Positions 28,321 to 44,339 of a DNA stretch of 64,000 nucleotides are shown one piece after another. The notes under the pieces are model-generated. The model saw only the letters and a list, made by a program, of their open reading frames with translations. It was not told where the DNA came from and did not search any database. The stretch spans positions 372,001 through 436,000 of the forward strand of contig NZ_QKLW01000001.1 in NCBI RefSeq assembly GCF_003208215.1, read 5' to 3'. The position numbers and the translations under genes were made by a program. How positions within the stretch are numbered: the first letter of the stretch is position 1; the number at the start of each line of letters is the position of its first letter. Source of the DNA: Marinomonas alcarazii (lineage in GTDB: Bacteria; Pseudomonadota; Gammaproteobacteria; Pseudomonadales; Marinomonadaceae).

Positions 28321-29550
28321 ATGAGTGACGTGTCTGGCGGCAATACTGTTTATGATATTACAGTGATAGGAGCGGGTATTGTTGGCCTGTCAACCGCTTG
28401 GCAATTACAGCAGCGTTATCCTACGTACCGCATACTATTGATTGAAAAAGAAGCAGAAGTTGGGATGCATCAGACCGGCCATAACTCAGGTGTTATTCAT
28501 GCTGGGGTTTATTATGCGCCAGGAAGTTTAAAAGCCGATTTTTGTCAGCGAGGTGCCAAAGCCACTAAGGCGTTCTGTCTTCAACATAATATCAAGTTTG
28601 ATGAATGCGGAAAATTATTGGTTGCAACCAATCCCGCTGAGCAAGAGCGTATGGAAGCCCTGTACTCGCGCTGCCAAGAAAATAACTTAGAAGTGCATAA
28701 GCTAGATCAGGCACAGCTTAAAGAGCGTGAGCCAAATGTGAAAGGCCTTGCGGCACTATATGTGCCTTCTACCGGAATCGTCAGCTATCGAGAGATTTGC
28801 CATAAGCTTGCTGAGCTTTTCGTAGGGAAGGGTGGCGAACTGCGCTTAGGTACAGAGGTGGTTGGCCTTGATGAGAGTCACGAACGTGTGGCGATCACAT
28901 TGAACAACGATGTAGTGAGTACATCTTATCTAGTCAGCTGCAGTGGTTTGATGGCGGATCGCCTGACTAAGATGCTTAATATCCCAACCGACTTTCAAAT
29001 TATTCCTTTTCGTGGTGAATATTACCGTTTGCCTGCAAAACACAATAAAGTTGTAAATCATTTAATCTATCCAATTCCGGATCCAGACTTACCGTTTTTA
29101 GGGGTACATTTGACTCGTATGATCGATGGGTCTGTGACGGTAGGCCCAAATGCGGTACAAGGATGGAAGCGAGAAGGCTATGGTCGAATTAACATAAACC
29201 TTCGTGACGTATTTGATATGGTGCGTTTCTCTGGCTTTTGGAAGCTGCTATCTAAGCATTGGAAAACAGGTTTGGTTGAGACTAAAAACTCTTGGTATAA
29301 ACCTGGTTACTTGGCGCAAGTACAGAAATACTGCGACCTTGTGTCATTGGATGATTTACAGGAATATCCAGCTGGAATACGAGCTCAGGCCGTGATGAAA
29401 GACGGCAGTTTGGTACATGATTTTCTATTTGCCCAAAGTGCTCGGACCTTACATGTATGCAATGCACCTTCACCAGCTGCCACTAGCGCATTTCCTATTG
29501 GTGCTTATATTATTGATAAGCTGGATGAGCAAATTACATCTATTCATTAA
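28321..29550 (+). CDS. lhgO: L-2-hydroxyglutarate oxidase/dehydrogenase
   Basis: FAD enzyme that oxidises L-2-hydroxyglutarate to 2-oxoglutarate and feeds electrons to the membrane. The 409-residue protein is of the DAO superfamily, with GAGIVGLSTAWQL (about 18-30) and the LhgO-typical HQTGHNSGVIHAGVYYAPGS near 57-76. GGAAGAAAG precedes the ATG. It could recycle a side product of 2-oxoglutarate metabolism from the adjacent TCA cluster. A link to the next catabolic island is possible but unproven. Confidence 0.9.
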   Translation: MSDVSGGNTVYDITVIGAGIVGLSTAWQLQQRYPTYRILLIEKEAEVGMHQTGHNSGVIHAGVYYAPGSLKADFCQRGAKATKAFCLQHNIKFDECGKLLVATNPAEQERMEALYSRCQENNLEVHKLDQAQLKEREPNVKGLAALYVPSTGIVSYREICHKLAELFVGKGGELRLGTEVVGLDESHERVAITLNNDVVSTSYLVSCSGLMADRLTKMLNIPTDFQIIPFRGEYYRLPAKHNKVVNHLIYPIPDPDLPFLGVHLTRMIDGSVTVGPNAVQGWKREGYGRININLRDVFDMVRFSGFWKLLSKHWKTGLVETKNSWYKPGYLAQVQKYCDLVSLDDLQEYPAGIRAQAVMKDGSLVHDFLFAQSARTLHVCNAPSPAATSAFPIGAYIIDKLDEQITSIH

Positions 29551-29632
29551 GGAATAAGGCGTTTTACTTCTGCAACTCAATTGATTGCTTAAATCAAATT
29601 GCTAGCCGCTGCATATAGGACGGGGAGAGTTA

Positions 29633-29677
29633 CATGACACCGCCAAGCAATTATCTAGTATGCTGGGTGGTGTCATG
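29633..29677. repeat. Long imperfect hairpin between convergent genes
   Basis: CATGACACCGCCAAGC (29633-29648) pairs with GCTGGGTGGTGTCATG (29662-29677): 16 positions, one G-T wobble and one mismatch, 13-nt loop. No T-run on either side. It lies between lhgO and the convergent DUF1330 gene, and may stop or protect both transcripts. Confidence 0.55.
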
Positions 29678-29698
29678 ATGAGCTCTAAATTTGCGTAA

Positions 29699-29992
29699 TT
29701 ATGCAAGGCCTTTGAGTATGAGTATATTTGCATTAGAACAATCGATACGATGTTCACGAGCAGCTTGGTACTCTGGAGATTGGTAACATTTAAGCGCGGT
29801 CTCATAACTATCAAACTCAAAGACTACGGCTCTATCAGGTGATCTGTCAAAGCCTTCAATGACAGTAAGGTCTTCTCCTCTTGAGAGTAGCTTCGCACCA
29901 TATTTTTTAAGCGCTTCAGGAGCGAGTGCCAAATAATCTTGATACTTTTCTTTGTCTTCTACAGTGACAAACGCAACCCAATATCCTTTCAT
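29699..29992 (-). CDS. DUF1330 domain-containing protein
   Basis: A 97-residue ferredoxin-like alpha/beta protein: GYWVAFVTVEDKEKYQDYL at the N-terminus, the conserved VIEGFDRSPDRAVVFEFDSYETALKCY core and YQAAREHRIDCSNANILI. This is the DUF1330 family (dimeric alpha-beta barrel), whose function is not established. It lies 30 bp after the CMD gene on the same strand and is probably co-transcribed with that gene and the GntR regulator. Confidence 0.85.
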   Translation of the reverse strand: MKGYWVAFVTVEDKEKYQDYLALAPEALKKYGAKLLSRGEDLTVIEGFDRSPDRAVVFEFDSYETALKCYQSPEYQAAREHRIDCSNANILILKGLA

Positions 29993-30022
29993 ACTCGATA
30001 GCCTTATTTTTATTTGATTAGA

Positions 30023-30403
30023 TTAGAGTAAGCCTTTTTCGGTCAATACGGCGCGTGCAATTCGGAAACATTCCACACCTTGCGGTACGCCACAATAGAT
30101 AGCAATCGCATGAATAATGGCGCGTATTTCTTCAACGCTGACGCCATTATTTATGGCACCTTTGAGGTGTAATTCCCATTCCTCCATTTTTCCTAATGCG
30201 GCGATCATGGAGAGGTTCATCATAGAGCGAGTTTTCGGTTCTATGGTTTCGTCGCCCCAGCCAAATCCCCAACACCATTCCGTCATGGCTTCTTGAAAAG
30301 GGCGATTAAACTCGTCTGCTTTGGCTAGGTTTTTCTCAACATATTCAGCACCTAACGTTTCTTTGCGCTTGTTAATACCTAGTTCAAATAGTGCTTTATC
30401 CAT
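30023..30403 (-). CDS. Carboxymuconolactone decarboxylase family protein
   Basis: A 126-residue all-helical protein of the CMD/PcaC family: KTRSMMNLSMIAALGKMEEWELHLKGAINNGVSVEEI, with the conserved His, and IHAIAIYCGVPQGVE. No CxxC pair typical of AhpD peroxidase-like members is present, so it is closer to the lactone decarboxylase type. Its ATG overlaps the GntR stop by one base (TAATG), so it belongs to the regulator's operon. Its substrate may be a lactone or small acid from the divergent pathway (inference). Confidence 0.82.
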   Translation of the reverse strand: MDKALFELGINKRKETLGAEYVEKNLAKADEFNRPFQEAMTEWCWGFGWGDETIEPKTRSMMNLSMIAALGKMEEWELHLKGAINNGVSVEEIRAIIHAIAIYCGVPQGVECFRIARAVLTEKGLL

Positions 30404-31062
30404 TACGCTGCTCCTTGTTCAGTTTGCATGGCGATATCATAGGCTTCTTGTAAGTGCCGGGTACAAATCTCACCGGCTTTTTCGGGGTCTTTTTCTTCCA
30501 TTGCTTTAACAATATCAAACAGGTCTTTTGGACCAGATGTCTTACGTCCGGTAGAGCTTAGTGTGAGAGCTCTTAGTCGTGAAATACGTGAATTCAGCTG
30601 CTCAACCAGGTCCCATGAAACATGCTTTTCAGCCGTCTTAAAAATGAGTTCGTAGAAATCCTTAGTCATTTTTAGGCCAGTTTTTACATCATCATTCAGT
30701 AGGTGGCTCGCAATATCATCCTGCAGTAGATAGAGTTTTTTAATGATTTCTGGTGTGGCTTTTTTGCTACAGGCTTTTACGGCAGAGCATTCAAGTAAGG
30801 TTCGAATTTCATAAATTTCTTTGACTTCCTCATTACTAATGGAAGCTACGATAAAACCCGCATTAGGAACGCCAACAACGAGCCTTTCGCTTTCAAGATG
30901 GCGAATGCACTCTCTGACAATGGTCCGGCTAACTCCCATGCTTTCACATAACGTTCTTTCTACAAGCCTATCTCCAGGTTTCAGTAGGTTGCTAGTGATG
31001 GCTCCCCTTAATGATTCCAGCGCATTTTCCTTTAGTGTTTTAGGGCGCTCAACTTTTTGCAT
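30403..31062 (-). CDS. FCD-type GntR transcriptional regulator
   Basis: 219-residue repressor-type regulator: N-terminal winged helix (ESLRGAITSNLLKPGDRLVERTLCESMGVSRTIVRECIRHL) and C-terminal helical FCD ligand domain. The ATG at 31062 is preceded by AGAGGA at good spacing and is preferred to 31092. It is divergent from the DUF1185 gene across a perfect palindrome carrying the TGGTATACCA core typical of FCD regulators, so it very likely controls the island in response to a pathway acid. Confidence 0.88.
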   Translation of the reverse strand: MQKVERPKTLKENALESLRGAITSNLLKPGDRLVERTLCESMGVSRTIVRECIRHLESERLVVGVPNAGFIVASISNEEVKEIYEIRTLLECSAVKACSKKATPEIIKKLYLLQDDIASHLLNDDVKTGLKMTKDFYELIFKTAEKHVSWDLVEQLNSRISRLRALTLSSTGRKTSGPKDLFDIVKAMEEKDPEKAGEICTRHLQEAYDIAMQTEQGAA

Positions 31063-31120
31063 CCAGTTTTCCTCTAATAATGTCCTAACCAATTATTTCA
31101 TGATAGTAGCACATTTATTG

Positions 31121-31150
31121 TTGCACCTAATAAGATTGTATGTTTACTAT
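31121..31150 (+). promoter_or_regulatory. Possible promoter of the DUF1185-led operon
   Basis: TTGCAC (31121-31126) and TACTAT (31145-31150), 18 bp apart, are a modest -35/-10 pair. The predicted start falls within the palindromic operator that follows, which would suit repression by the GntR protein. Confidence 0.35.
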
Positions 31151-31152
31151 TG

Positions 31153-31176
31153 TGTCATATGGTATACCATATGACA
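31153..31176. promoter_or_regulatory. Perfect 24-bp palindromic operator
   Basis: TGTCATATGGTA and its exact reverse complement meet at the centre with no spacer. The core TGGTATACCA is the FadR/FCD-type GntR half-site pair. It sits between the regulator and the catabolic operon it probably controls. Confidence 0.75.
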
Positions 31177-31204
31177 AATTAAATGTTTCATTGTAGGAAT
31201 GGAT

Positions 31205-31804
31205 ATGACTTTAGAAATTCGCAAAATCGTTAGTTTTGAAGAAGAGACACTGGTTGAAGGGTTTAAAGCAGCAGATACGCCTTTGCGTATGTTTGCCGTT
31301 GCCGCTGTCATTAAAAACCCGTGGGCTGGTAAGTATGTTGAAGACCTAAAACCTATCGTTCTGGAATACGGCCCACAGCTTGGAAAATTATTAACGGATA
31401 GAATTTGTGAACTGGCTGGCGGGGCTGACAAGATAGAAGCCTTTGGTAAAGCGGCGCTTGTCGGTCTAAATGGTGAGATCGAACATGCTTCCGCTCTAAT
31501 TCATACTTTACACTTCGGTAATTTCTATCGAGAAGCGGTAGAAGCGAAATCCTTCTTATCTTTTACCAATACTCGTGGTCCTGCCAACGCGTCTATTTCT
31601 GTTCCTATGATGGACAAGAACGATGGCGGCAAACGCTCTCATTATTTGACACTTCAATTCAACATAAATGATGCGCCTGGTGCGGATGAAGTTGTTGTTG
31701 TGTTGGGAGGTGCTTCAGGCGGCAGACCACATCATCGTATTGGTGACCGTTACCAAGAGCTGAAGGAGCTAGGGCATGACATTGAAAACCCTGCAGCGGT
31801 TTAA
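31205..31804 (+). CDS. Amino acid synthesis family protein (DUF1185)
   Basis: 199 residues from the ATG at 31205 (ribosome site TAGGA at good distance; the ATG at 31199 is too close). It matches the DUF1185/AA_synth family: IRKIVSFEEETLVEGFK, VAAVIKNPWAGKYVEDL, AALVGLNGEIEHASALIHT and GGASGGRPHHRIGDR. The reaction is not established; the fold is reported to be chorismate-mutase-like. First gene of the catabolic operon; overlaps the hydrolase gene by 29 bp. Confidence 0.82.
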   Translation: MTLEIRKIVSFEEETLVEGFKAADTPLRMFAVAAVIKNPWAGKYVEDLKPIVLEYGPQLGKLLTDRICELAGGADKIEAFGKAALVGLNGEIEHASALIHTLHFGNFYREAVEAKSFLSFTNTRGPANASISVPMMDKNDGGKRSHYLTLQFNINDAPGADEVVVVLGGASGGRPHHRIGDRYQELKELGHDIENPAAV

Positions 31805-32609
31805 ATCGCCAACAGGTCTTTCCTACGTGAAATTAGGGCAAGGGCCATCCCTTGTTCTGATTCATGGAGTAGGGCTTAGGCTGGAAGCTTGGGTGAATCA
31901 ATTAGAGGCCTTGTCTAAAAACTATACCGTTTATGCTGTCGATATGCCTGGTCATGGAGAGAGTAGTGTGATGAAAGAATGCACCGATATCTCTAAATAC
32001 ACAGATGTTATTGCCCGTTGGGTAAAAACAGAATTGAAGTCCTCTGTTGTTATGGTTGGTCATTCAATGGGGTCGATGATTGCGCTGAATTTTGCGATTC
32101 GATATTCAAAGCTTTGCTCTGGAGTGCTTGCTCTTAACTCGGTTTATCGTCGTTCTGCAGAAGCTAAGAAAGCTGTTTTGGCGAGAGTTCAGCAAATTAA
32201 ACATGACATTAACGCGCAAAATGTCACGGGTCCTGTGGCTCGTTGGTTTGATTATCCGGTTCAAGGCAATGATGTTGTCTACGCTGATTTGTGCTGCCAA
32301 TGGCTTAGTCAGGCACCTTTAGATGGCTATCGACAAGCCTACGAAGTGTTTTGTCTAAATGACGGCCCAGCTGAAAGTGATCTGGAAGCACTGGCCGTAC
32401 CTGCGATGTTTATTACCGGTCGGAATGACCCAAATTCTTTGCCTTCTATGTCTGAGAATATGGCTGCAATTTGCTCTAAAGGTGAATCGTATATTGTTGA
32501 AAATGCTCGACATATGGCGCCGTTGACTCATTCGAATGAAATAAACCCGATTATGATTGATTTTGCCTCACGCTGCTTTATTCAATCAAAGGAGATGTCT
32601 CATGAGTAA
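31776..32609 (+). CDS. Alpha/beta hydrolase, candidate TgnD-like ring-fragment hydrolase
   Basis: A 277-residue cytoplasmic alpha/beta hydrolase: oxyanion motif IHGVG near 29, nucleophile elbow GHSMGS (Ser near 98), acid in ITGRNDPNS near 214, and catalytic His in ENARHMAPLTHS near 248. In the trigonelline pathway a hydrolase cleaves the N-methylformamido-methylene succinate intermediate to succinate semialdehyde, methylamine, formate and CO2. The gene context fits that role, but other amide/enol hydrolases are possible. It overlaps its neighbours on both sides. Confidence 0.75.
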   Translation: MTLKTLQRFKSPTGLSYVKLGQGPSLVLIHGVGLRLEAWVNQLEALSKNYTVYAVDMPGHGESSVMKECTDISKYTDVIARWVKTELKSSVVMVGHSMGSMIALNFAIRYSKLCSGVLALNSVYRRSAEAKKAVLARVQQIKHDINAQNVTGPVARWFDYPVQGNDVVYADLCCQWLSQAPLDGYRQAYEVFCLNDGPAESDLEALAVPAMFITGRNDPNSLPSMSENMAAICSKGESYIVENARHMAPLTHSNEINPIMIDFASRCFIQSKEMSHE

Positions 32610-33510
32610 TTTTGACGTACGTGAACTACGCAATGCATTCGGTTCCTTTATGACTGGAGTGACCATAGTAACGGCAGTAAGTAAAACTGGAGAAAAGGTA
32701 GGTTTTACTGCGAACTCATTCACGTCGGTATCTATGGATCCACCTTTGTTGTTGGTTTGTCCTGCTTTGCGCCTATCTAGTTACGACATTTTTGAGTCAT
32801 GTGATCACTTTGCCGTGAGTGTTCTGGCGGAAGATCAGCAACATGCTTCGAATACATTTGCAGGTTCTAAAGGCGATCGTTTTGCTGAAGTGGAATGGCA
32901 TGCAGATGAATTTGGAACGCCACTGATTACTGGAGCGGTTGCCCATTTTTCTTGTTCATCATTTCAAAAAGTTGAGGCTGGTGATCATTTACTGCTGATG
33001 GGCAAAGTTGAACAGTTTTCAAGCAATGAAAAGTTTGGATTGGGTTATGCGAAAGGCGGCTATTTTAGCTTAGGCATGGAGCATAAAGCGGAAGAGATCG
33101 CCCATGAACAGTATGCACAAGTTGGAGCGTTAGTAGAATGTAATGGCAAACTCTTACTTAAACGAACGGAACAAGGCTTCAGTTTACCGCAAGGCAAAAT
33201 GCAGGCTGAAATTTCGTCTCTCCAAACTTTAAAAAACCTGCTTGTTTCTCTTGGTATTGAAGCGGAAGTCGGTCAGGTTTTTTCTGTCTATGAGAAGTCA
33301 ACAGCGGGAAATTTTGTGGCTTTCTATCGCGCTGAAAGTGTCGCTGAAAATACGCTTGATGGTTATGAGTATGTGGGCATCGATGATTTGTCGGATGTGG
33401 CTTTTGCCTCTTCAGACTTAACCTCTATGGTGACACGTTTTGTTCAAGAAAAGCGTAATGGTGTTTTTCGCCTATACGTCGGTAATGAATTAGAAGGAGA
33501 TGTACGATGA
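32602..33510 (+). CDS. Flavin reductase fused to a degenerate Nudix-like domain
   Basis: 302 residues from the ATG at 32602 (GGAGATGTCTC before it, 8-bp overlap with the hydrolase gene). Residues 1-160 are a flavin reductase domain (FGSFMTGVTIVTAV, GFTANSFTSVSMDPPLLLVC), which supplies reduced FMN. Residues 175-300 look like a Nudix fold (VGALVECNGKLLLKR, LPQGKM), but the Nudix box lacks the REXXEE catalytic residues. The next gene encodes the matching monooxygenase. This corresponds to the TgnA-type reductase component (inference). Confidence 0.8.
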   Translation: MSNFDVRELRNAFGSFMTGVTIVTAVSKTGEKVGFTANSFTSVSMDPPLLLVCPALRLSSYDIFESCDHFAVSVLAEDQQHASNTFAGSKGDRFAEVEWHADEFGTPLITGAVAHFSCSSFQKVEAGDHLLLMGKVEQFSSNEKFGLGYAKGGYFSLGMEHKAEEIAHEQYAQVGALVECNGKLLLKRTEQGFSLPQGKMQAEISSLQTLKNLLVSLGIEAEVGQVFSVYEKSTAGNFVAFYRAESVAENTLDGYEYVGIDDLSDVAFASSDLTSMVTRFVQEKRNGVFRLYVGNELEGDVR

Positions 33511-34541
33511 AGTTTTCACTTTTTGCTCATATGGAGCGGGTAGACGAACAACAGCGTCAGAAAGATCTTTATGATGAATTTATGTCGCTTTGTAAAATGG
33601 CGGATGAAGGCGGAATGACTACTGTTTGGACGGGTGAACACCACGGCATGGACTTTACCATTGCGCCAAACCCATTCCTGAATTTGATTGATATTTCGCA
33701 TCAAACTAAAAATATCCGCTTGGGAACAGGCACCGTTGTTGCGCCATATTGGCATCCAATAAAGCTGGCAGGCGAAGCGGCGATGACAGATATCATCACT
33801 AAAGGTCGTCTTGAATTGGGTATCGCACGTGGTGCTTATTCTTTTGAGTACGAGCGTATGGTTCCAGGTGGGATGGATGCTTGGGCAGCGGGTGAGTGTT
33901 TACGAGAAATGGTGCCTGCTATCAAAGGGTTGTGGAAAGGGAATCATACCCAAGAAAGTAAGCATTATAACTTTCCGAAAACCACGTCTTCACCAAAGCC
34001 ATTAACGCAAGATGGTCCTCCAATCTGGATTGCAGCACGAGACATTAATAGCCATGAATTTGCTATTAGCCAAGATTGTAACGTGCAAGTCACTCCTCTT
34101 TGGCAGGGTTTAGAGGAAGTTGAAGGGCTCATTGAAAAGTACAACGAAGCCTGTAATAAGTTCGATCGTCGTACCAAAATTATGATTTTGCAGCATGCTT
34201 ATGTTGCAAAGGATGAAGTTGAAGCAGACAAAGCAGCGACTAAGTTGCATGAATTCTATTGTTATTTTGGCGCGTGGTTTAAGAATGAACGCCCAATTAA
34301 TCAGGGGTTGATTCAGTCTCTTACTCAAGAAGAAATTGATAATCACCCATTCTATAAAAAAGAAGCCATTAAAAACGATCTCATGATAGGCACTTCTGAA
34401 CAGATTATTGAGCGTCTAAAACATTATGAAGCACTTGGTTATGATGAATTCGCTTATTGGTCTGATTCCGGCATGACTCGGGAAGAAAAAGAAACGTCCT
34501 TACGTCGCTTTATTGATGAAGTAATGCCAGCTTTTAATTAA
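33507..34541 (+). CDS. Luciferase-like flavin monooxygenase, candidate TgnB-like ring-cleaving oxygenase
   Basis: A 344-residue class C flavin monooxygenase with an (alpha/beta)8 luciferase fold: VWTGEHHGMDFTIAPNPFL near 41-60, RLGTGTVVAPYWHPIKLAGE near 71-91, RLELGIARGAYSFEYE near 101-116 and a C-terminal MIGTSEQIIERL. It overlaps the reductase gene by 4 bp (ATGA), a two-component monooxygenase pair. In Acinetobacter TgnA/TgnB such a pair opens the pyridinium ring of trigonelline; the substrate here is inferred from context. Confidence 0.82.
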   Translation: MKFSLFAHMERVDEQQRQKDLYDEFMSLCKMADEGGMTTVWTGEHHGMDFTIAPNPFLNLIDISHQTKNIRLGTGTVVAPYWHPIKLAGEAAMTDIITKGRLELGIARGAYSFEYERMVPGGMDAWAAGECLREMVPAIKGLWKGNHTQESKHYNFPKTTSSPKPLTQDGPPIWIAARDINSHEFAISQDCNVQVTPLWQGLEEVEGLIEKYNEACNKFDRRTKIMILQHAYVAKDEVEADKAATKLHEFYCYFGAWFKNERPINQGLIQSLTQEEIDNHPFYKKEAIKNDLMIGTSEQIIERLKHYEALGYDEFAYWSDSGMTREEKETSLRRFIDEVMPAFN

Positions 34542-34552
34542 GGAATAGGCTC

Positions 34553-36046
34553 ATGTCTAATAAAAATAAATTACCACACTTTAAGTTGCTTATTGATGGT
34601 GTCTGGACTGATGGTGCTAATGCTCGCTCTATGACAACAACGAACCCTGCAACGGGTGAAGCTTGGGCAACTTTTGCCATGGCGGAAGCCGAAGATGTTG
34701 ATCGTGCCGTTAAAGCTGCACGTAATGCACTTTCTAAGAAAGAATGGGGCGGATTAAGCCCGACGCAGCGTGGTGTTCTAATGCACAAGTTGGCTGATCT
34801 ATTGGAGCAGCATTCAGAAGCCTTAGGCGAAATTGAAACCACAGACAGTGGCAAGCTGGCTGCAGAAACTCAGAGTCAAGCCAAATACGTAGCGAGCTAT
34901 TATCGTTATTACGCCGGATTAGCTGACAAAATAGAAGGCCATACATTACCAATCGACAAGCCAGATATGCATGTCTTTACCAAGCCTGAACCGATCGGTG
35001 TGGTTGCTGCCGTCGTGCCATGGAATGCACAAATGTTTTTAACCGCTACTAAGTTGGCGCCTGCGCTGGCTGCTGGTTGTACGGTGATCATTAAGGCATC
35101 AGAAGTTGCTCCTATTGCTATCTTAGAATTTGCTAAGTTGATTGAAAAAGCAGGTTTTCCAAGCGGTGTTGTCTCTGTCATTACTGGGGACGCTGAAGGC
35201 TGCGCGATTCCACTAACCTCTCATCCTGATATTGATCGTCTTGCTTTTACTGGTGGTCCAGAAACTGCAAAACATGTGGTTAGAAATACCGCGAATAACT
35301 TCGCAGTGACGTCATTAGAATTAGGTGGGAAATCACCGATTTTAGTCTTTGATGATGCCAATATTGAAAGTGCTGTAAATGGCATTATCGCAGGAAATTT
35401 TGGTGCATCTGGACAGTCTTGCGTTGCAGGCTCTCGTGTTTATGTCCAACGTGATATCTACCCTAAAATTTTGGCGCGTTTGTTAGAAAAAACCGCAGCT
35501 ATTGTTGTTGGCAACCCTCTGAATGCGACAAGTCATATTGGTCCCTTATGCACCTTGGCACAAGTTGAAGGCATTGAGCGAACTTTGGATAAAGCTAAAG
35601 CACAAGGCGGCAAAGTGTTAACAGGAGGCACACGTCTAAACGATCTAGGGTCGGATTATTATTTTGCACCAACCATCGTTGAGTGTCCGACTCACGATAT
35701 TGAAACGCTGCATGTTGAGCTATTTGGTCCTGTGTTATCGATCGCATGTTTTGATTCAGAAGAAGAGGCGATTACGTTAGCGAATAACTCTGAATTTGGT
35801 CTTGGCTCAGGCCTTTTTACCGAAAATTTAGCTCGCGCGATGCGTGTTTCTCAACAAATTAAGTCAGGTGTCTGTTGGGTGAATACTTATCGAGCCGTTT
35901 CGCCTATGGCACCTTTCGGTGGCATTAACCAATCTGGCTATGGGCGAGAAGCGGGTATTCAAGCTATCCAGGATTACATCAGGGTACGTACCACTTGGAT
36001 TAATACATCAAGTGAACCTATGGGGAATCCATTTGTAATGCGATAA
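34553..36046 (+). CDS. NAD(P)-dependent aldehyde dehydrogenase, candidate TgnC-like
   Basis: A 497-residue aldehyde dehydrogenase. The NAD-binding and catalytic motifs are intact: VPWNAQMFLTATKLAPALAAG, general base Glu in SLELGGKSP near 262, and nucleophile Cys in GASGQSCVAGSRVYVQ near 296. It follows the monooxygenase by 11 bp. In the trigonelline pathway the aldehyde formed by ring opening is oxidised by TgnC, which this gene could represent. Confidence 0.85.
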   Translation: MSNKNKLPHFKLLIDGVWTDGANARSMTTTNPATGEAWATFAMAEAEDVDRAVKAARNALSKKEWGGLSPTQRGVLMHKLADLLEQHSEALGEIETTDSGKLAAETQSQAKYVASYYRYYAGLADKIEGHTLPIDKPDMHVFTKPEPIGVVAAVVPWNAQMFLTATKLAPALAAGCTVIIKASEVAPIAILEFAKLIEKAGFPSGVVSVITGDAEGCAIPLTSHPDIDRLAFTGGPETAKHVVRNTANNFAVTSLELGGKSPILVFDDANIESAVNGIIAGNFGASGQSCVAGSRVYVQRDIYPKILARLLEKTAAIVVGNPLNATSHIGPLCTLAQVEGIERTLDKAKAQGGKVLTGGTRLNDLGSDYYFAPTIVECPTHDIETLHVELFGPVLSIACFDSEEEAITLANNSEFGLGSGLFTENLARAMRVSQQIKSGVCWVNTYRAVSPMAPFGGINQSGYGREAGIQAIQDYIRVRTTWINTSSEPMGNPFVMR

Positions 36047-36228
36047 ATACAGGTTATTTGTGCCTTTTAATTATCTAGAAGCTACGCATTAGCAAAAGGA
36101 TGAGTGTTTTTTTACTTGATTCCAATTGCGGTGCGTTTGCGATTTTTAGCGAATTTTATATACGTTGCTGATTTATATGGATTTTTTAAAGATAAGCGCT
36201 GTAACAGCCTAAACCAATAAAAATAAAC

Positions 36229-36245
36229 TCAAATATTATATTTGA
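36229..36245. repeat. 17-bp palindrome before the BCCT gene
   Basis: TCAAATATTATATTTGA is a perfect odd palindrome, 22 bp upstream of the BCCT start and inside a 221-bp gap that may hold a second promoter. It lacks the TGGT-ACCA core of the main operator, so it may bind a different factor. Confidence 0.4.
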
Positions 36246-36267
36246 AGGCTTATGCTTAGGAGTTGTC

Positions 36268-37887
36268 ATGAAACCAAGCAGTACAGAACAAGATATGAGT
36301 CATAAGAGAATGCGTAACATCATGTCCTACGGTTCCATTTTAATGGTCGGGGCGTTTGTTCTCTTTTCGGTTTTAAATGTGAAGCTATCTAACGATATAG
36401 CAAATGGAATTAATCATTGGATTCAAACTAATATGAGTTGGTATTACATTGCGGTTGTCTGCTTTGTATTATTTTTCTCAGTGTGGGTGGCATTCAGTCG
36501 CTACGGTAACATTCGTCTTGGTAGGGATGATGAGAAGCCTGAATTCGGCTTTACTGCCTGGTTCTCAATGCTGTTTAGTTGTGCGATTGGTACAGGGCTA
36601 CTGTTCTGGAGTATTGCAGAGCCTATTACCTATTTACAGGGCAATCCATTTTTGGATATGGAGCATATACAACCTAATACACTAGATGCGGCGCGAGTTG
36701 CATTGCGTATAACCATGTTTCATTGGGGACTTCATGGTTGGGCTGTTTATATTTTAGTGGGCCTTTGTTTAGCGTATTTCTGCTATCGAAGAGGGTTACC
36801 GCTTACCGTTCGTTCTGGATTATATCCCTTGTTGGGCGACAGAGTTTATGGGCCGATTGGTCATGCTGTCGACTTCTTGGCCATATTCAGCACGCTCTTC
36901 GGTACTGCCACTACGTTAGGTCTTGGCGTCTCACAAATGAACGCGGGCCTGAATTATCTTTTTGGTATCGAGATTTCTTCTACTTCTCAGGTGATATTAA
37001 TCGCTATTGTATCGATTATCGCGACTATTTCTGCTATTTCAGGGGTAGGTAGAGGCATTCGAATATTGAGTATTTGGAATATTCGATTAAGCACTCTTGT
37101 CATTGCGTTTTTCGTTCTAGCTGGCCCTACGGTATTTTTATTAAAAATGACCGTTTCAGGTCTAGGTGACTATTTTACCAATTTCATTCCTATGGGATTC
37201 TGGGTTGATACGGACCCTAATCGCCAATGGCAGAGCTGGTGGACAATCTTTTATTGGGGTTGGTGGTTGTCTTGGGGTCCATTAGTTGGGATGTTCATTG
37301 CGCGTATTTCTCGTGGCCGCACTATTCGCCAGTTCCTATTAACTGCTTTGGTTATTCCTCCATTAGGTGGTTTTATTTGGATTATTGTATTCGGCGGAAC
37401 GGCTCTTCATATTCAGGTGCTTGGTGATGGTTCTTTAGCTAGCGTTGTGAATGACAATATTACATTGGCTTTGTATAGCACCATTGAAGCGATCAATGTG
37501 CCATCTTTAACAAATTTGGTTGCTGGTCTTACGACCTTCCTTATTGTTACGTGGTTCGTGACTTCTGCGGATTCCGGAACCTTGGTCATTTGTACAATAG
37601 TGTCACTTGGAGATAAGAATCCATCCAAAGTATTGCGTCTTGTTTGGGGGATCGGGCTTGGCGCTGTCTCAGCTATTTTATTGATTGCTGGCGGGTTGGA
37701 CTCTTTAAAAACGGCATCAATTATCGCCGCTTTACCTTTCTCTGTTGTTTTATTGTTTATGTGTTGGGCGTTGGTGAAAGGCTTGGCTGATGAAGCCAAT
37801 GGCATTCGTTACAACCAAGATGATCTTGCAGGTGGTGGTTCTCAGGAAAAGTCTGTTTCTTCAAAAGAAGAGCTTGCATCAAATTAA
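36268..37887 (+). CDS. BCCT family betaine/carnitine/choline-type transporter
   Basis: A 539-residue secondary transporter with about 12 membrane spans. The BCCT signature is clear: FYWGWWLSWGPLVGMFIARI followed by SRGRTIRQF near residues 325-355, with the Trp-rich segment that binds quaternary ammonium groups. GTGLLFWSIAEPI near 110 is the conserved unwound-helix region. It lies between two aldehyde dehydrogenases of the island, so it probably imports the N-methylated zwitterion the island degrades. AGGAG precedes the ATG. Confidence 0.92.
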   Translation: MKPSSTEQDMSHKRMRNIMSYGSILMVGAFVLFSVLNVKLSNDIANGINHWIQTNMSWYYIAVVCFVLFFSVWVAFSRYGNIRLGRDDEKPEFGFTAWFSMLFSCAIGTGLLFWSIAEPITYLQGNPFLDMEHIQPNTLDAARVALRITMFHWGLHGWAVYILVGLCLAYFCYRRGLPLTVRSGLYPLLGDRVYGPIGHAVDFLAIFSTLFGTATTLGLGVSQMNAGLNYLFGIEISSTSQVILIAIVSIIATISAISGVGRGIRILSIWNIRLSTLVIAFFVLAGPTVFLLKMTVSGLGDYFTNFIPMGFWVDTDPNRQWQSWWTIFYWGWWLSWGPLVGMFIARISRGRTIRQFLLTALVIPPLGGFIWIIVFGGTALHIQVLGDGSLASVVNDNITLALYSTIEAINVPSLTNLVAGLTTFLIVTWFVTSADSGTLVICTIVSLGDKNPSKVLRLVWGIGLGAVSAILLIAGGLDSLKTASIIAALPFSVVLLFMCWALVKGLADEANGIRYNQDDLAGGGSQEKSVSSKEELASN

Positions 37888-37923
37888 GCTATTTACTGAG
37901 GATGATTTCTCAATGGAGCAAAT

Positions 37924-39387
37924 ATGTTACAACAACAATTAAAAGATCCTTCGTTACTTAAATGCGCAGGGTTTATCAATGGGCAGTGGGTGCAAACCAA
38001 GACTGAAAAAGCCTTTGAGGTGTTTAATCCATCGACTGGTGATGTGGTTGCCAATGTCGCGGATTTAGGGGTTAAAGAAACACAGCTGGCCATTGATGCT
38101 GCTCAAGCCGCTTTTGAAAAATGGCGAGAAGTGCCTGCAAAGCAAAGATCGTCTCTTTTACGTCGCTGGTTTGACCTTGTTATGGCGAATCAAGAAGATC
38201 TGGCTTTAATTATGACCTTTGAACAAGGGAAGGTGATTGCAGAGTCTCGCGGTGAAGTGGCTTATGGTGCTTCTTATATTGAATGGTTTGCTGAAGAAGC
38301 GAAACGTATCTATGGTGATATTCTTCCAAGCACCACCTCAGATCGACGCTCATTAGTGATTAAGCAAGCTGTCGGTGTGGTTGGCGCGATTACACCATGG
38401 AATTTTCCTAATGCCATGATCACTCGTAAAGTGGCTCCTGCATTGGCGGCAGGTTGCACGATTGTATTAAAGCCTGCGTCAGAAACACCACTTTCAGCCT
38501 TAGCCTTGGCTGAACTGGCTGATCGCGCAGGTTTTCCTGCGGGTGTGTTTAATGTTGTCACAGGAACGGATTCAAAGTCGATTGGCGCAGAATTGACATC
38601 TAACCCTGATGTGAAAAAAATCACATTTACGGGGTCTACGGTAGTCGGCAAGATCTTGATGGAACAATCTGCAAAAACTGTTAAGAAAACATCAATGGAG
38701 TTGGGTGGCAATGCACCTGTTTTGATATTCGAAGATGCAGATTTAGATAAAGCGGTTGAAGGCGCATTGGTAGCGAAGTTTCGTAATGCAGGTCAGACTT
38801 GTATATGTGCTAATCGTATTTTGGTTCAGGATTCTATTTACGAAGAGTTTATCCGTCGCTTTACAGCGCGTGTATCGGAATTCGTACTGGGCGATGGGCT
38901 ATCTTCTGAAAGTACAATGGGTCCTTTAATCACTAAAAAAGCGGTGGCTGGTGTTGTTTCTTTGGTAAATGATGCGGTAAGTCTAGGAGCGAAGGTTTGT
39001 ATCGGGGGAAATGTTGGCAGTAATGGAGATTATTTCTTTGAACCAACGGTCCTGAGAGATTTAAATGCTTCTATGCGTCTTGCTAAAGAAGAGGTGTTTG
39101 GTCCGGTCGCGCCTGTGTTTAAGTTTGGCTCAGAAAAAGAAGCTGTAGCGATGGCGAATGATACTGAGTTTGGACTTGCTGCCTATATGTATACCAAGGA
39201 TCACGGACGTATTTGGCGTGTTGGTGAGGCACTGGAGTACGGAATGGTGGGAATTAATGAAACGGCCATCAGTTCTGAAATGATACCTTTTGGTGGCGTT
39301 AAAGAATCAGGTCAGGGTCGCGAAGGTTCAAAATATGGACTAGAAGACTATTTGGAAATCAAATACATGTGTATGGGAGATATCTGA
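37924..39387 (+). CDS. gabD: Succinate-semialdehyde dehydrogenase (NAD(P)+)
   Basis: A 487-residue GabD-type aldehyde dehydrogenase: TPWNFPNAMITRKVAPALAAG, Glu in SMELGGNAPVLIFEDADLDKA near 260 and Cys in FRNAGQTCICANRI near 294. It would convert succinate semialdehyde to succinate, the last step of the trigonelline route before the TCA cycle. Glutarate or 2-oxoglutarate semialdehyde are alternative substrates. It lies 36 bp after the transporter and ends with a strong terminator. Confidence 0.88.
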   Translation: MLQQQLKDPSLLKCAGFINGQWVQTKTEKAFEVFNPSTGDVVANVADLGVKETQLAIDAAQAAFEKWREVPAKQRSSLLRRWFDLVMANQEDLALIMTFEQGKVIAESRGEVAYGASYIEWFAEEAKRIYGDILPSTTSDRRSLVIKQAVGVVGAITPWNFPNAMITRKVAPALAAGCTIVLKPASETPLSALALAELADRAGFPAGVFNVVTGTDSKSIGAELTSNPDVKKITFTGSTVVGKILMEQSAKTVKKTSMELGGNAPVLIFEDADLDKAVEGALVAKFRNAGQTCICANRILVQDSIYEEFIRRFTARVSEFVLGDGLSSESTMGPLITKKAVAGVVSLVNDAVSLGAKVCIGGNVGSNGDYFFEPTVLRDLNASMRLAKEEVFGPVAPVFKFGSEKEAVAMANDTEFGLAAYMYTKDHGRIWRVGEALEYGMVGINETAISSEMIPFGGVKESGQGREGSKYGLEDYLEIKYMCMGDI

Positions 39388-39395
39388 TAGGAATG

Positions 39396-39434
39396 GAGCC
39401 CCGCCAATCGAATAGTTTAGCGGGGCTCTTTTTT
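39396..39434 (+). terminator. Terminator after the catabolic island
   Basis: GAGCCCCGC (39396-39404) pairs with GCGGGGCTC (39420-39428), 15-nt loop, followed by a T-run. It closes the transporter/GabD transcript. Confidence 0.9.
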
Positions 39435-39646
39435 AATGTTAATTATTGATAGGGTTCTTAAATGAACCCACGTTCTTACTCTGTGTTACCTGTTTGCATC
39501 ATTTCCAACCGTTCTTTGTATTGCATAAGTAAGTAGCCCTGTTTGTTTAGTACGAAAGCATTGTGAAATAAAGATGGCTTAGTTTGTATTGTGTAAGTGA
39601 TTCAAGCTAAAGTGACTAATGTATAAATCACTGATAAGGAATAAGT

Positions 39647-40616: not shown

Positions 40617-41300
40617 TCAAGTCGTTTTTGTGTAGCGTTGCTTTGGCCTGCCACCTGTTTTGTAATCGAGTGTCATGCAGACATAGCCTTGGGTTTCTAA
40701 ATACTCAAGGTAGCGTCTTGCGGTGATGCGGCTAAGATTAATGGCATCGCCAACTTCTTCGGCAGTGAATGAATGTTCCTCTATGGTTTCAAGGTATTGA
40801 TTAAGCTTTTCTAAGGTGTTCTCGTCAATGCCTTTTGGTGTTTTTCGGCTGCCGTCTTGAGAAGCGCTCTTTCGAAATAGCGCATCTATGTCTTGTTGAT
40901 CGATTTTATTGTTTTTCGTTAGACGCTTTTTAAAATCTAAATAATCATCCAACGCCTGTAATACGCGAGACATGCGAATTGGTTTGACTAAGTAATCTAT
41001 CACGCCAAGTTGGATGGCTTTTTCAATGGTCGTGGTTTCTCTTTCTGCCGTTGTCATGATAAAGGCGGCATTGAAACCACGCTGCTTTAAAGATTTTACT
41101 AAGCCAATCCCGTTTCCATCAGGAAGCGTAATGTCCACCATGATCAATTCTGGTTCGAATGCTTCGGCTTTTAATTCTGCTTCAATAATACTTTCACAGA
41201 CTGCGATAACATGAAAATCATTGTGCTGGTTTACGGTACTTTCTAATACATAGCTAGCACGCAGATCATCTTCCACAATCATTACAGGAATGCGACTCAT
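40617..41300 (-). CDS. CitB/DcuR-type response regulator
   Basis: A 227-residue regulator. Receiver domain 1-125: acidic VEDD near 10, phospho-acceptor Asp in LIMVDITLPDGNG near 56, Thr in MTTAE, Lys in YLVKPIR near 106. The C-terminal helix-turn-helix is LNQYL..EHSFTAEEVGDAINLSRITARRYLEYLETQGYV. It partners the overlapping kinase and probably activates the 2-hydroxycarboxylate transporter gene upstream. Confidence 0.88.
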   Translation of the reverse strand: MSRIPVMIVEDDLRASYVLESTVNQHNDFHVIAVCESIIEAELKAEAFEPELIMVDITLPDGNGIGLVKSLKQRGFNAAFIMTTAERETTTIEKAIQLGVIDYLVKPIRMSRVLQALDDYLDFKKRLTKNNKIDQQDIDALFRKSASQDGSRKTPKGIDENTLEKLNQYLETIEEHSFTAEEVGDAINLSRITARRYLEYLETQGYVCMTLDYKTGGRPKQRYTKTT

Positions 41301-42895
41301 CTTATTAGTGCTCGTTTATCTAAATAAATACTAAACACAGTGGTGTTTTCTTCACTGCGCTCCCAATCCAGACTGCCATGATATTGGTCGACAACTTTTT
41401 TAACCAAATATAAGCCAATACCGTGTTGCTCTGTACTGTGCTTGCTGCTGACGCCAAAATCCAATATTCGGCTTTCTAGTTTTTCATCAATACCGGCGCC
41501 GCTGTCTTCAATTTGTATCATGATGTGGGCGTTACGATCACTGATATAGAGTTTAACAAATGGTGATGAATGCTGTCTGTTTGACCAGGCTGCCAGAAAG
41601 GCATTGTCTATTAGGTTTCCAACTAAAGTGACCAAGGCTTCATTTGCCTCAGAAGGGTAGTGACCTAATTGGCAATCGCTATCCATTTGCATGTCTACTT
41701 TTAAGTCTTTGGCTTTGTTGTGCTTAGCGAAAATAAGGCCTGCTACAGCACTGTTTTCGATGGTCTGAATAATGCGTTTTAGTATTATTTGGTCGCCGTC
41801 GCTTTCTTTTTGGAGGTATTCAATAGCGTCATCATAGCGCCCTGCTTGCAGCATACCAGACAGTACATTAAGTCGATTAGAATGCTCATGTGTTTTAGCA
41901 CGTAATAAGTCAGCGTAATTCTTTGTGGAAATTAGCTCTTGTTCTAGAGACTTTTCACCGTGATCAGGAAAGAAGACGATGACATAGCCTACATTGCCTT
42001 TTTTACCTTTGATAGGGTAAAGGGTAGCGATAAATTCCAGAGCACCTAAATGAAACCTGTTTTGAGTGAGTTGGCCTTTTGCTTCTAAGATAAAATGGGA
42101 AAGACTTTGAGAGAGTTCTTTTAACGGCTTTCTGACAACTTGTGACGGGCTTAAAACGTTCATGGTTAACCATTCAACCGCTGTGCTGTTAATCGCGGTA
42201 ATGCTCTGTTCATGATCAATGGCAACAATGCCATCGCGAATGCTGTCTAAAATTAATTCATGCTCTTTGAATTTCTGTACGATCTCTTCTGGTTCTAAGC
42301 TTAAAAAAGTCCGTTTTAACTTGGCGATCAAAAAAATCGCGATAACCACACCAAGTAAATAAACTAGCACAACAAGTAAGCCTGCTTCTTTTAAATGTTG
42401 ATATATCAATTCGCTGGTAGTTTGAGATAAATAGCCAACGCTAACGGCCCCAATTACGTCTGAATTGTGTTTTATAGGTGTGAAATTGCGAATGGCTTCC
42501 CCTAGTGAACCGCTGGCGACATTGGTAAAAGCGATGCCTTGCTGTAGGACTGGGTATATATCGTCTCCTATAAAAGCTTTACCGATCAATGTGGGTGTTG
42601 GATGACTTAGACGAATGGCGTCTTTGTTTACGACAACAATATAAGATGCGTCTGTTTGCTGGCGAAGATTTTCGATGTGTTGCTCTAGGGAAGTAAATTG
42701 ACCCGAATTGCTTGCTTTGACGGCCTGAATCACTTTTTCGTCTTGGGCAATGACTCGAGCTAGCTCCAACCCTCGTTTACTTATTCCTTCTAAATAGGCA
42801 TTTTGTAGGGAATAGCCGAATACGAATGCCGCTGAAATGATAATGGCGGTAATGGTTGAAATTGTAATTAATGCTAAGTAGGACTTAAGTGTCAT
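41297..42895 (-). CDS. CitA/DcuS-type sensor histidine kinase
   Basis: About 532 residues from the ATG at 42895. Membrane span LALITISTITAIIISAAFVF, a periplasmic PAS-like sensing domain (SYIVVVNKDAIRLSHPTPTLIGK), second span LLVVLVYLLGVVIAIFLIA, cytoplasmic PAS, phospho-acceptor His in THEHSNRLNVLSGMLQ, and ATPase motifs NLIDNAFLAAW and DSGAGIDEKL. The frame stays open to 43009, but that stretch runs through a terminator hairpin, so a later start is preferred; no strong ribosome site marks it. Overlaps the regulator by 4 bp. Confidence 0.87.
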   Translation of the reverse strand: MTLKSYLALITISTITAIIISAAFVFGYSLQNAYLEGISKRGLELARVIAQDEKVIQAVKASNSGQFTSLEQHIENLRQQTDASYIVVVNKDAIRLSHPTPTLIGKAFIGDDIYPVLQQGIAFTNVASGSLGEAIRNFTPIKHNSDVIGAVSVGYLSQTTSELIYQHLKEAGLLVVLVYLLGVVIAIFLIAKLKRTFLSLEPEEIVQKFKEHELILDSIRDGIVAIDHEQSITAINSTAVEWLTMNVLSPSQVVRKPLKELSQSLSHFILEAKGQLTQNRFHLGALEFIATLYPIKGKKGNVGYVIVFFPDHGEKSLEQELISTKNYADLLRAKTHEHSNRLNVLSGMLQAGRYDDAIEYLQKESDGDQIILKRIIQTIENSAVAGLIFAKHNKAKDLKVDMQMDSDCQLGHYPSEANEALVTLVGNLIDNAFLAAWSNRQHSSPFVKLYISDRNAHIMIQIEDSGAGIDEKLESRILDFGVSSKHSTEQHGIGLYLVKKVVDQYHGSLDWERSEENTTVFSIYLDKRALIR

Positions 42896-42955
42896 GTATG
42901 GATTATTACTTATGAAATAAGAGCGGTGATTATACAGCATACAGAGGGAACGGCT

Positions 42956-42997
42956 AAACAAAAGGGAAAAGCCTTGACGGACTTTTCCCTTTTGTTT
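42956..42997 (-). terminator. Terminator between transporter and kinase genes
   Basis: A perfect 16-bp stem: 42956-42971 pairs with 42982-42997, 10-nt loop; the A-rich and T-rich ends allow function in either direction. It lies 59 bp after the transporter stop on the minus strand. Confidence 0.8.
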
Positions 42998-43055
42998 GAA
43001 AGCTAGCAAGGTGATTATGCGGACTTGCTAGTTTATTAAATAACTTGTTGAAGTG

Positions 43056-44339
43056 TTATGCGATCGATTGCACCACAATTGTCGCCAATATCAGCATGAA
43101 GGCACCACCAATTCGCGATGAGATTTGTGCGAAAGGCATCAGCTCCATACGTTTACTTGCCGCAAGTACCGCTACGTCGCCTGTACCGCCCATGTTTGCC
43201 ATGCAAAGCCCGCCAGTAATCGCAGCCTCGATTGGATAAAAGCCCATCAACCAGCCGATTAAGCCAGCACCAAAAACAGCGCCAAGTACGGTGATTAGAA
43301 CTAGTAAGAAGTAGATTGGGGATAGAGCATTAAGAATTTGGTTCAGATCTGTGTATGCCACACCAATGCCGACCAATAGGGCTGGTGTTAGGTTGCCAAC
43401 AACAAACTTGTACCAAGAAAAAGCAGCTTGCTCTAACGCCTTAGGCATAATGCCAGACACTTTGATAATAGCGATTGACAGGATCATTAGCGCATAAGTG
43501 TGCATGCTAATGTAGTTGGATAGAAAAGTACCAATGAAGTACATGCTGACAGCCAACAAAGCACCAACGCCAAGAGTGGTGACAGTCAATCCAGAGACTG
43601 TTTGGTCTTCTTCCTCAATCGGTTTTTGGCCGCGAATTAGTTGGCCATTACCTGTTAGGCTTGGGGACATCTGGCCGAGTTTATTGAGCAATCCCGCAAT
43701 CACAATAGCGATAGCATTACCAATAGCCAATGCAGGAACCATTTGTGACATTAGCGTCTCTGCATTCATGCCCGTCTTTCCAGACATGATTTCAACAAGT
43801 GGCACAGCTCCAGCACCCATACCACCACCCATAATAGGCAGTGCTATTAACATCACGGAATCGTAAAAGTCTTTGCTCACCAGCATGCCAACTAGGCCTG
43901 TGAAGATACAAGCGAAGAAAGCAGACCCTAAAATCACCGGAATGTATTTTAATGCGGCTTGTTTTAGGGTTTGTGTGTCCATACCAAAAATGGAGCCCGT
44001 TACTAGACTGGCAACATAAAACGCTAAAAAGCCACCACTTTTCATGAAGGTTGTAATGTTGCTTTCAGCGCTAGAAGGAAACAAACCGCTGTGGAATAAG
44101 TAAGCAGAGCCGAAAATGACGACAATCGCGCCACCACCGAAGAACTGATTGATAATAGGGGTTCTGTCCCCAATGTAATTAAGGATGAAGCCGATGATGA
44201 CCATAATACCCAAGGCACCGATCATTCCGCTGGGCATTTGGCCGGCAAACGTAGCCAATAGAATGGTAATTGCGGCAATAGCCAATATGATTTTACTGGT
44301 GCGTTGATCGCGCACTGTCATAGCATCATTACTGAACAT
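43056..44339 (-). CDS. 2-hydroxycarboxylate transporter (citrate/malate:Na+ type)
   Basis: A 427-residue membrane protein with 10-11 spans in the 2HCT family (CitS/MaeP/CimH): GQMPSGMIGALGIMVIIGFILNYIG near residue 30, the re-entrant loop GGMGAGAVPLVEI near 170 and the second GGLCMANMGGTGDVAVLAA near 395. Substrate is citrate, malate or a related acid. The adjacent CitA/CitB-like pair supports induction by that acid. Confidence 0.9.
   Translation of the reverse strand: MFSNDAMTVRDQRTSKIILAIAAITILLATFAGQMPSGMIGALGIMVIIGFILNYIGDRTPIINQFFGGGAIVVIFGSAYLFHSGLFPSSAESNITTFMKSGGFLAFYVASLVTGSIFGMDTQTLKQAALKYIPVILGSAFFACIFTGLVGMLVSKDFYDSVMLIALPIMGGGMGAGAVPLVEIMSGKTGMNAETLMSQMVPALAIGNAIAIVIAGLLNKLGQMSPSLTGNGQLIRGQKPIEEEDQTVSGLTVTTLGVGALLAVSMYFIGTFLSNYISMHTYALMILSIAIIKVSGIMPKALEQAAFSWYKFVVGNLTPALLVGIGVAYTDLNQILNALSPIYFLLVLITVLGAVFGAGLIGWLMGFYPIEAAITGGLCMANMGGTGDVAVLAASKRMELMPFAQISSRIGGAFMLILATIVVQSIA

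Follow-up and report, generated by a model that had tools for sequence, protein, structure and literature searches.

The window is a stretch of 64,000 nucleotides of Marinomonas alcarazii (RefSeq assembly GCF_003208215.1, contig NZ_QKLW01000001.1, positions 372,001 to 436,000 of the forward strand; positions below are counted from its first letter). It carries ten genes for which an original prediction, made from the letters alone, had proposed the role of a catabolic island for an N-methylpyridinium carboxylate, trigonelline or homarine. The gene set given there for 29,699–39,434 was confirmed: all ten genes are intact open reading frames (ORFs) and 10/10 score above the Pfam cut-offs (Table 1); the end point 39,434 coincides with the end of the T-run that follows a strong hairpin. 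The FCD/GntR, CMD and DUF1330 genes are read leftward and those from DUF1185 through the succinate semialdehyde dehydrogenase (SSADH) rightward, with a gap of 106 bp between both sets. The DUF1185, hydrolase, reductase and oxygenase genes overlap successively by 29, 8 and 4 bp, and such an arrangement suggests coupled translation of the first four rightward genes.

Table 1. Genes and other features of the island (positions of the window; strand; basis of the assignment)
Feature	Positions	Strand	Basis
Inserted island, between lhgO-like and lipoprotein-like genes (both named by eye)	29545..39540	.	blastn breakpoints
DUF1330 protein, accessory	29699..29992	-	Pfam PF07045, 3.4e-31
CMD-family protein, PcaC-related but under the PcaC cut-off; candidate decarboxylase (inference)	30023..30403	-	Pfam PF02627
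FCD/GntR regulator, divergent from the operon	30403..31092	-	Pfam FCD + GntR
24-bp perfect palindrome TGTCATATGGTATACCATATGACA, presumed operator	31153..31176	.	sequence
DUF1185 protein, TgnF homologue	31199..31804	+	Pfam PF06684 (AA_synth), 1.2e-71; 67% to PK01
alpha/beta hydrolase, TgnD candidate	31776..32609	+	Pfam Abhydrolase; conserved catalytic residues
Flavin reductase with Nudix-like C-terminal half, TgnA candidate	32602..33510	+	Pfam Flavin_Reduct; 3rh7 match
Luciferase-like (LLM) oxygenase, TgnB candidate	33507..34541	+	Pfam Bac_luciferase; 64–65% to PK01 TgnB; tree
Aldehyde dehydrogenase (ALDH), TgnC candidate	34553..36046	+	Pfam Aldedh; 54% to annotated PK01 TgnC
BCCT carrier, presumed trigonelline importer	36268..37887	+	Pfam BCCT
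GabD-type SSADH, TgnE candidate	37924..39387	+	Pfam Aldedh; NCBIfam SSADH
Presumed rho-independent terminator, hairpin GAGCCCCGC-15 nt-GCGGGGCTC + T-run	39396..39434	+	sequence

The oxygenase is 64–65% identical to the annotated TgnB of Acinetobacter sp. PK01. In a tree of 36 rows selected by the authors it stands on the TgnB side (22 rows, including PK01 and Sinorhizobium meliloti), separated from a sister side of 14 rows by a 100/100 split; this value belongs to the second tree only, from which outgroups had been removed and in which there were fewer rows and S. meliloti had been added, the first tree (48 rows, distant outgroups with very long branches, 3 outgroup rows missing) having given a weak split, 77/100. 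A grouping with RutA or alkanesulfonate oxygenases, named beforehand as the outcome that would speak against the proposed role, was not found: the alkanesulfonate identity (SsuD) was rejected at 25 bits against the 518 required by the SsuD model, and RutA was rejected with no RutA model among the best 25 of 26 matches. The run DUF1185–hydrolase–reductase–oxygenase–ALDH was present in 8/8 plasmid records (PK01, Leisingera, Marivivens, Ruegeria, Caballeronia, Phyllobacterium, Chimaeribacter, Thioclava), chosen by the authors from the best 40 rows of 1005 records; for each locus the longest ORFs served as proteins, so that some rows have overlong N-termini. The eight-gene core from DUF1330 to ALDH was kept in all 11 oxygenase-bearing genomes of a genus sample of 48 Marinomonas genomes (G000 being the window's own genome), and because of these two recurrences the clustering of the genes is not chance.

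The sister oxygenases (36–42% to the window's) occur in marine and soil Proteobacteria (loci L064 onward, L127, L128). Five of their loci (L066, L069, L070, L127, L128) hold varying selections from ALDH, alpha/beta hydrolase, DUF1185, RidA, enoyl-CoA hydratase, 3-hydroxyacyl-CoA dehydrogenase, acyl-CoA dehydrogenase, CoA-transferase, BKACE and a GlxA-type regulator; the presence of RidA suggests an enamine intermediate in that route. The idea of a homarine-specific sister clade was dropped, the neighbours at the opened loci being CoA-pathway genes. At Woeseiaceae and one alphaproteobacterial locus (L057, L058, L060, L061, L062) oxygenase, ALDH, hydrolase and DUF1185 were found, with no TgnA-like reductase match within the stretch examined.

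Identities to the PK01 proteins are 67% (DUF1185), 65% (oxygenase), 56% (SSADH), 54% (ALDH), 43% (regulator), 41% (reductase, to TgnA) and 38% (hydrolase). The reductase profile matches the solved structure 3rh7, which we take to be the SMa0793 reductase of S. meliloti, over positions 4–308 of 309 (7e-116); its C-terminal half gives weak matches to Nudix chains. In the hydrolase, S97, D218, H246, R126 and R137 are invariant (23/23 aligned rows), S97-D218-H246 being the catalytic triad; the protein, a TgnD candidate, is divergent across the set (53–67% between the window and other Oceanospirillaceae rows). The ALDH gene directly follows that of the oxygenase, and its C290, E256 and N158 are likewise invariant (23/23); by position and catalytic Cys/Glu it is a TgnC-type candidate, strict orthology being unproved at 54% to PK01. 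The last dehydrogenase passes the NCBIfam cut-off of the SSADH subfamily (691 vs 646 bits); three more GabD-like genes, 57–59% identical to it, lie elsewhere in the genome. According to PMC7913881, the TgnF of A. baylyi is a DUF1185-type protein that stimulates the TgnE-dependent oxidation of succinic semialdehyde, though its authors could not show stimulation of this type for their own TgnF homologue. Since that paper equates DUF1185 with TgnF of the Acinetobacter pathway, the DUF1185 protein belongs to the Tgn scheme.

The segment is a true genomic island, with an empty site in relatives and sharp breakpoints. In the genus sample the left neighbour (lhgO-like, E 1e-60) was found in 45/48 genomes, the right one (E 1e-10) in 36/48 and both in 34; the two lie close together on a single contig in 27 of these 34, and on different contigs or far apart in the other 7. 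The distance between them is ~0.1–0.95 kb in 25 of the 27 genomes, and 10.1 kb, with the cluster between, only in G000 and G018 (hand-counted from tables). Comparison (blastn) with four empty sites (G006, G026, G041, G027) placed the breakpoints at 29,540–29,544 and 39,541–39,553, so that "island" was literally the right word. The oxygenase carriers (11/48; 84–100% identity) include G006, G026, G041 and G013, where it is found at another place and the window's site is empty. DNA identity between G000 and G018 is 91.6% in the island against 83.7 and 79.8% in the flanks, the ALDH–BCCT gap inside the island showing only 80.9%; the higher identity of the island fits recent exchange, and stronger constraint would give it too. 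The GC content (43.0% vs 43.8% for the window) is not unusual, and no integrase-like gene was found among the ten island genes (Pfam). Among 369 sampled genomes of the class, 8 (own included) had an oxygenase match at E 1e-60, and for 4 of these (own included) the identity was at least 59%.

The core TGGTATACCA (mostly ATGGTATACCAT) of the operator-like palindrome was found between the regulator and DUF1185 genes in the examined Marinomonas loci, Marinobacterium, PK01, Leisingera, Marivivens, Phyllobacterium, Chimaeribacter and an uncultured gammaproteobacterium; it is also present in Ruegeria, partially in an Oceanospirillales metagenome-assembled genome, and as a one-base variant in S. meliloti. 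It is thus common to several genera though their regulators are only 40–44% like the window's. FCD regulators often bind similar half-sites, and the shared core may therefore be taken as support rather than as proof. The 10-mer TGGTATACCA with one mismatch occurs at 5 sites in the window vs 1.4 expected, only one of them exact. Even at up to 3 mismatches the genome holds no other site for the inner 20 bp, the regulon search returning its own site only, and no second operator was found before the BCCT gene. The FCD/GntR protein would presumably act as a repressor at the palindrome as long as no ligand is bound.

BCCT and SSADH genes adjoin the core, BCCT after ALDH, in 7/11 Marinomonas clusters. 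In Thioclava a BCCT gene stands beside ALDH and its product has the window's carrier as best match (51%, vs 39 and 26% for the two others in the genome); other tgn clusters have a carrier of cytosine-permease or ABC type instead.

The CMD and DUF1330 genes, present in 11/11 Marinomonas clusters, had been regarded together with DUF1185 as extra genes with no Tgn step and as a sign that the route may differ. This was wrong for DUF1185, the TgnF homologue; the other two recur in some tgn clusters, DUF1330 in those of PK01, Marivivens, Chimaeribacter and Thioclava. A different route on account of these genes was therefore rejected. As their occurrence outside Oceanospirillaceae is patchy (CMD in 2/15 TgnB-type loci, L040 and L042; DUF1330 in 5/15; some loci short), neither looks essential to tgn clusters. 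The CMD protein (47–50% to that of PK01) stays under the equivalog model of PcaC, the 4-carboxymuconolactone decarboxylase (118 bits, 156 needed). We infer for it, as a rather doubtful proposal combined with trigonelline import by the BCCT carrier, a role as dedicated decarboxylase of 2-formylsuccinate, the aldehyde acid that TgnD action should leave, which would make enzymatic a step thought to be spontaneous or due to TgnD itself.

CMD proteins 70–78% identical to the window's adjoin the sister oxygenase at L069:8488-8883, L105, L108, L110, L112, L114 and L121; the oxygenases beside these copies are only 37–39% identical to the window's.

Genes for the use of methylamine were found beside tgn in relatives. 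The PK01 plasmid holds a gene annotated glnT, interpreted as one for gamma-glutamylmethylamide synthetase (GMAS) and neighboured by glutamate-synthase-like genes, and beside tgn a sarcosine-oxidase-like set, read as N-methylglutamate dehydrogenase (MGD) type because its scores are under the SoxA/SoxB cut-offs. In Marinomonas the GMAS-type gene (67–70% identity) is present in 7/11 tgn carriers vs 6/37 non-carriers (Fisher p 0.004), and the MGD-type FAD subunit in 7/11 vs 7/37 (Fisher p 0.008). Five of the 11 carriers (G005, G006, G010, G013, G021) have tgn flanked by a GMAS-type gene on one side and an MGD-type gene on the other, all within 19–29 kb, an arrangement pointing to release of methylamine. 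At the thresholds used (for the MGD-type query, of inferred identity, E 1e-130) neither a GMAS-type nor an MGD-type gene was found in the M. alcarazii genome, whose own Sox-like subunits A and B score as sarcosine oxidase; for this reason methylamine is probably excreted here, the organism gaining the carbon of trigonelline but not its nitrogen, and the same would apply to G018, G026 and G041.

At G013:C1 ~2,044,000–2,064,000 (L143, L149) the MGD-type gene belongs to a PurU–FolD–MGD-type set like that of the PK01 plasmid, with 39–80% identity subunit by subunit and scores likewise under the Sox cut-offs.

Taken together, oxygenase clade, gene order, SSADH and TgnF homologue support, on genomic evidence, a Tgn-type island for an N-methylpyridinium carboxylate, and we infer its substrate, transporter role and regulation as follows: with a probability of roughly 85% it is a cassette for the uptake and degradation of trigonelline, a compound of plants and algae related to vitamin B3. 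The steps proposed are those of the Tgn scheme reportedly set out by Perchat (PNAS, 2018). The BCCT carrier would import trigonelline; TgnA would provide reduced flavin, with which TgnB would open the ring between C5 and C6 to give N-methylformamido-methylene hydroxybutyrolactone; this lactone would be oxidised by the ALDH (TgnC) to N-methylformamido-methylene succinate, which the alpha/beta hydrolase (TgnD) would split into formate, methylamine, CO2 and succinic semialdehyde; and the SSADH (TgnE), aided by the DUF1185 protein (TgnF), would form succinate.

Of the two substrates offered by the original prediction, trigonelline held up well and homarine less so. Trigonelline is favoured because of the oxygenase clade, the SSADH within the cassette, the linkage to GMAS in relatives, the lack of an MGD-type gene here and a published steric and growth argument. 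Degradation of homarine (N-methylpicolinate) by the island would begin with the same C5–C6 cleavage and end at an N-methylated 2-oxoglutarate imine and N-methylglutamate. By mechanism, N-methylglutamate would presumably result from identical oxygenase, ALDH and deformylase chemistry; MGD is involved in the catabolism of homarine (PMC13390433), and MGD-type genes stand beside tgn in several Marinomonas. In PMC8269262 homarine is reported at a concentration above that of trigonelline in seawater particles, the homarine values having later been corrected downwards; the same source holds TgnAB unlikely, on steric grounds, to act on homarine and records poorer growth of R. pomeroyi on homarine than on trigonelline. 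On such a route the SSADH, and presumably also the GMAS co-located in relatives, would be superfluous, a search of this genome at E 1e-130 gave no MGD-type gene, and the oxygenase stands among trigonelline-linked references in the tree; homarine as the substrate is accordingly very improbable.

Very improbable, too, is another ring compound of the same shape (for instance another N-alkyl nicotinate, N-methylnicotinamide or nicotinate itself) as the substrate of a marine sub-branch, with trigonelline turnover as a side activity only: the Marinomonas/Marinobacterium branch does have its own type of ALDH and hydrolase (54% and 38% to PK01), but the hydrolase is fast-evolving across the whole set, and gene order and operator core are common to the window and PK01. 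An unrelated betaine or carnitine route sharing enzyme classes only is scarcely credible, for although the sister oxygenases lie with CoA-pathway genes and the BCCT carrier shares 47–55% identity with BCCTs of Leisingera, one of them encoded after a carnitine 3-dehydrogenase gene, the window's cluster is without those CoA genes and its oxygenase lies across the 100/100 split.

Several points weigh against the assignment to trigonelline. The match to PK01 is loose outside oxygenase and DUF1185 (38–56%), and the island ALDH is about equally close to ALDHs of the sister clusters (53–56%). The Tgn reference was the PK01 copy, and its labels come from automatic annotation, with only tgnA, tgnB and tgnC labelled. 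BCCT and SSADH do not adjoin the core in 4/11 Marinomonas, and the likeness to Leisingera BCCTs speaks against specificity of the carrier. Five of the tgn loci searched for the operator core (Thioclava, Caballeronia, L058, L060 and L062) showed none. Promoter-like and terminator-like scans did no better than shuffles (11 vs 21.0 and 10 vs 10.1), the terminator of Table 1 being unlisted by the scan, whose limits its 15-nt loop exceeds. "GMAS-type" and "MGD-type" are our reading of genes annotated glnT and sarcosine-oxidase-like, the Fisher tests ignore the kinship of the genomes, and G000, G018, G026 and G041 are without both methylamine genes. No published substrate test in Marinomonas was found in the open literature (subscription papers and preprints being outside the scope).

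To the right of the island, 40617–44339 holds genes that by eye encode a response regulator, a sensor kinase and, putatively, a transporter of 2-hydroxycarboxylate type. At 22766–24310, beside lpd and sucCD (by eye), an E2-like protein has two near-identical lipoyl-type domains; one is the usual number for the E2 of 2-oxoglutarate dehydrogenase.

With the assignment to trigonelline, a pathway of soil Acinetobacter and rhizobia is extended to Marinomonas and marine relatives, on a cassette with a species-variable site. The presence or absence of GMAS and MGD would predict which strains obtain nitrogen from trigonelline and which obtain no more than its carbon and leak methylamine, and the pattern bears on how N-methylated pyridines feed marine methylamine pools.

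As regards known systems, the end-step of vitamin B6 degradation is catalysed by alpha-(N-acetylaminomethylene)succinic acid hydrolase (3kxp), an alpha/beta hydrolase that converts an N-acylaminomethylene succinate to succinic semialdehyde, chemistry of the type proposed for the island hydrolase; the latter matches it weakly (6.6e-18), however, and is better matched by 3-oxoadipate enol-lactonase (9e-28). The tgn cluster of A. baylyi ADP1 is said to comprise TgnA-F. The Acinetobacter tgn cluster on the PK01 plasmid (NZ_CP094644) shares with the island the gene order GntR / DUF1185, hydrolase, TgnA, TgnB, TgnC, has DUF1330, SSADH and CMD genes close by, and shows the operator core ATGGTATACCAT; it differs in that its carrier is annotated as a cytosine permease, not BCCT, and that its SSADH and CMD genes are downstream of the carrier. 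On pSymA of S. meliloti, GntR, DUF1185, hydrolase, reductase, oxygenase and ALDH stand in a row as in the island, and SSADH 4.3 kb further; there, however, GntR is on the operon strand, the oxygenase is 58% identical to the window's, and the 40 kb examined contain no match to CMD, DUF1330 or BCCT. S. meliloti without pSymA did not grow on trigonelline according to PMC4207669, and trigonelline genes are placed on pSym by Goldmann 1991, by its title as given in reference lists. Homarine catabolism shares the N-methylpyridinium carboxylate substrate and is unlike the present case in involving MGD (PMC13390433), for which no gene of the type was found in this genome. The BCCT importer, the constant CMD gene, the mobility of the island within Marinomonas and the GMAS–tgn–MGD linkage are apparently undescribed in the open literature searched, although the PNAS 2018 paper may list marine homologues; the whole is a system of known type, in a new host.

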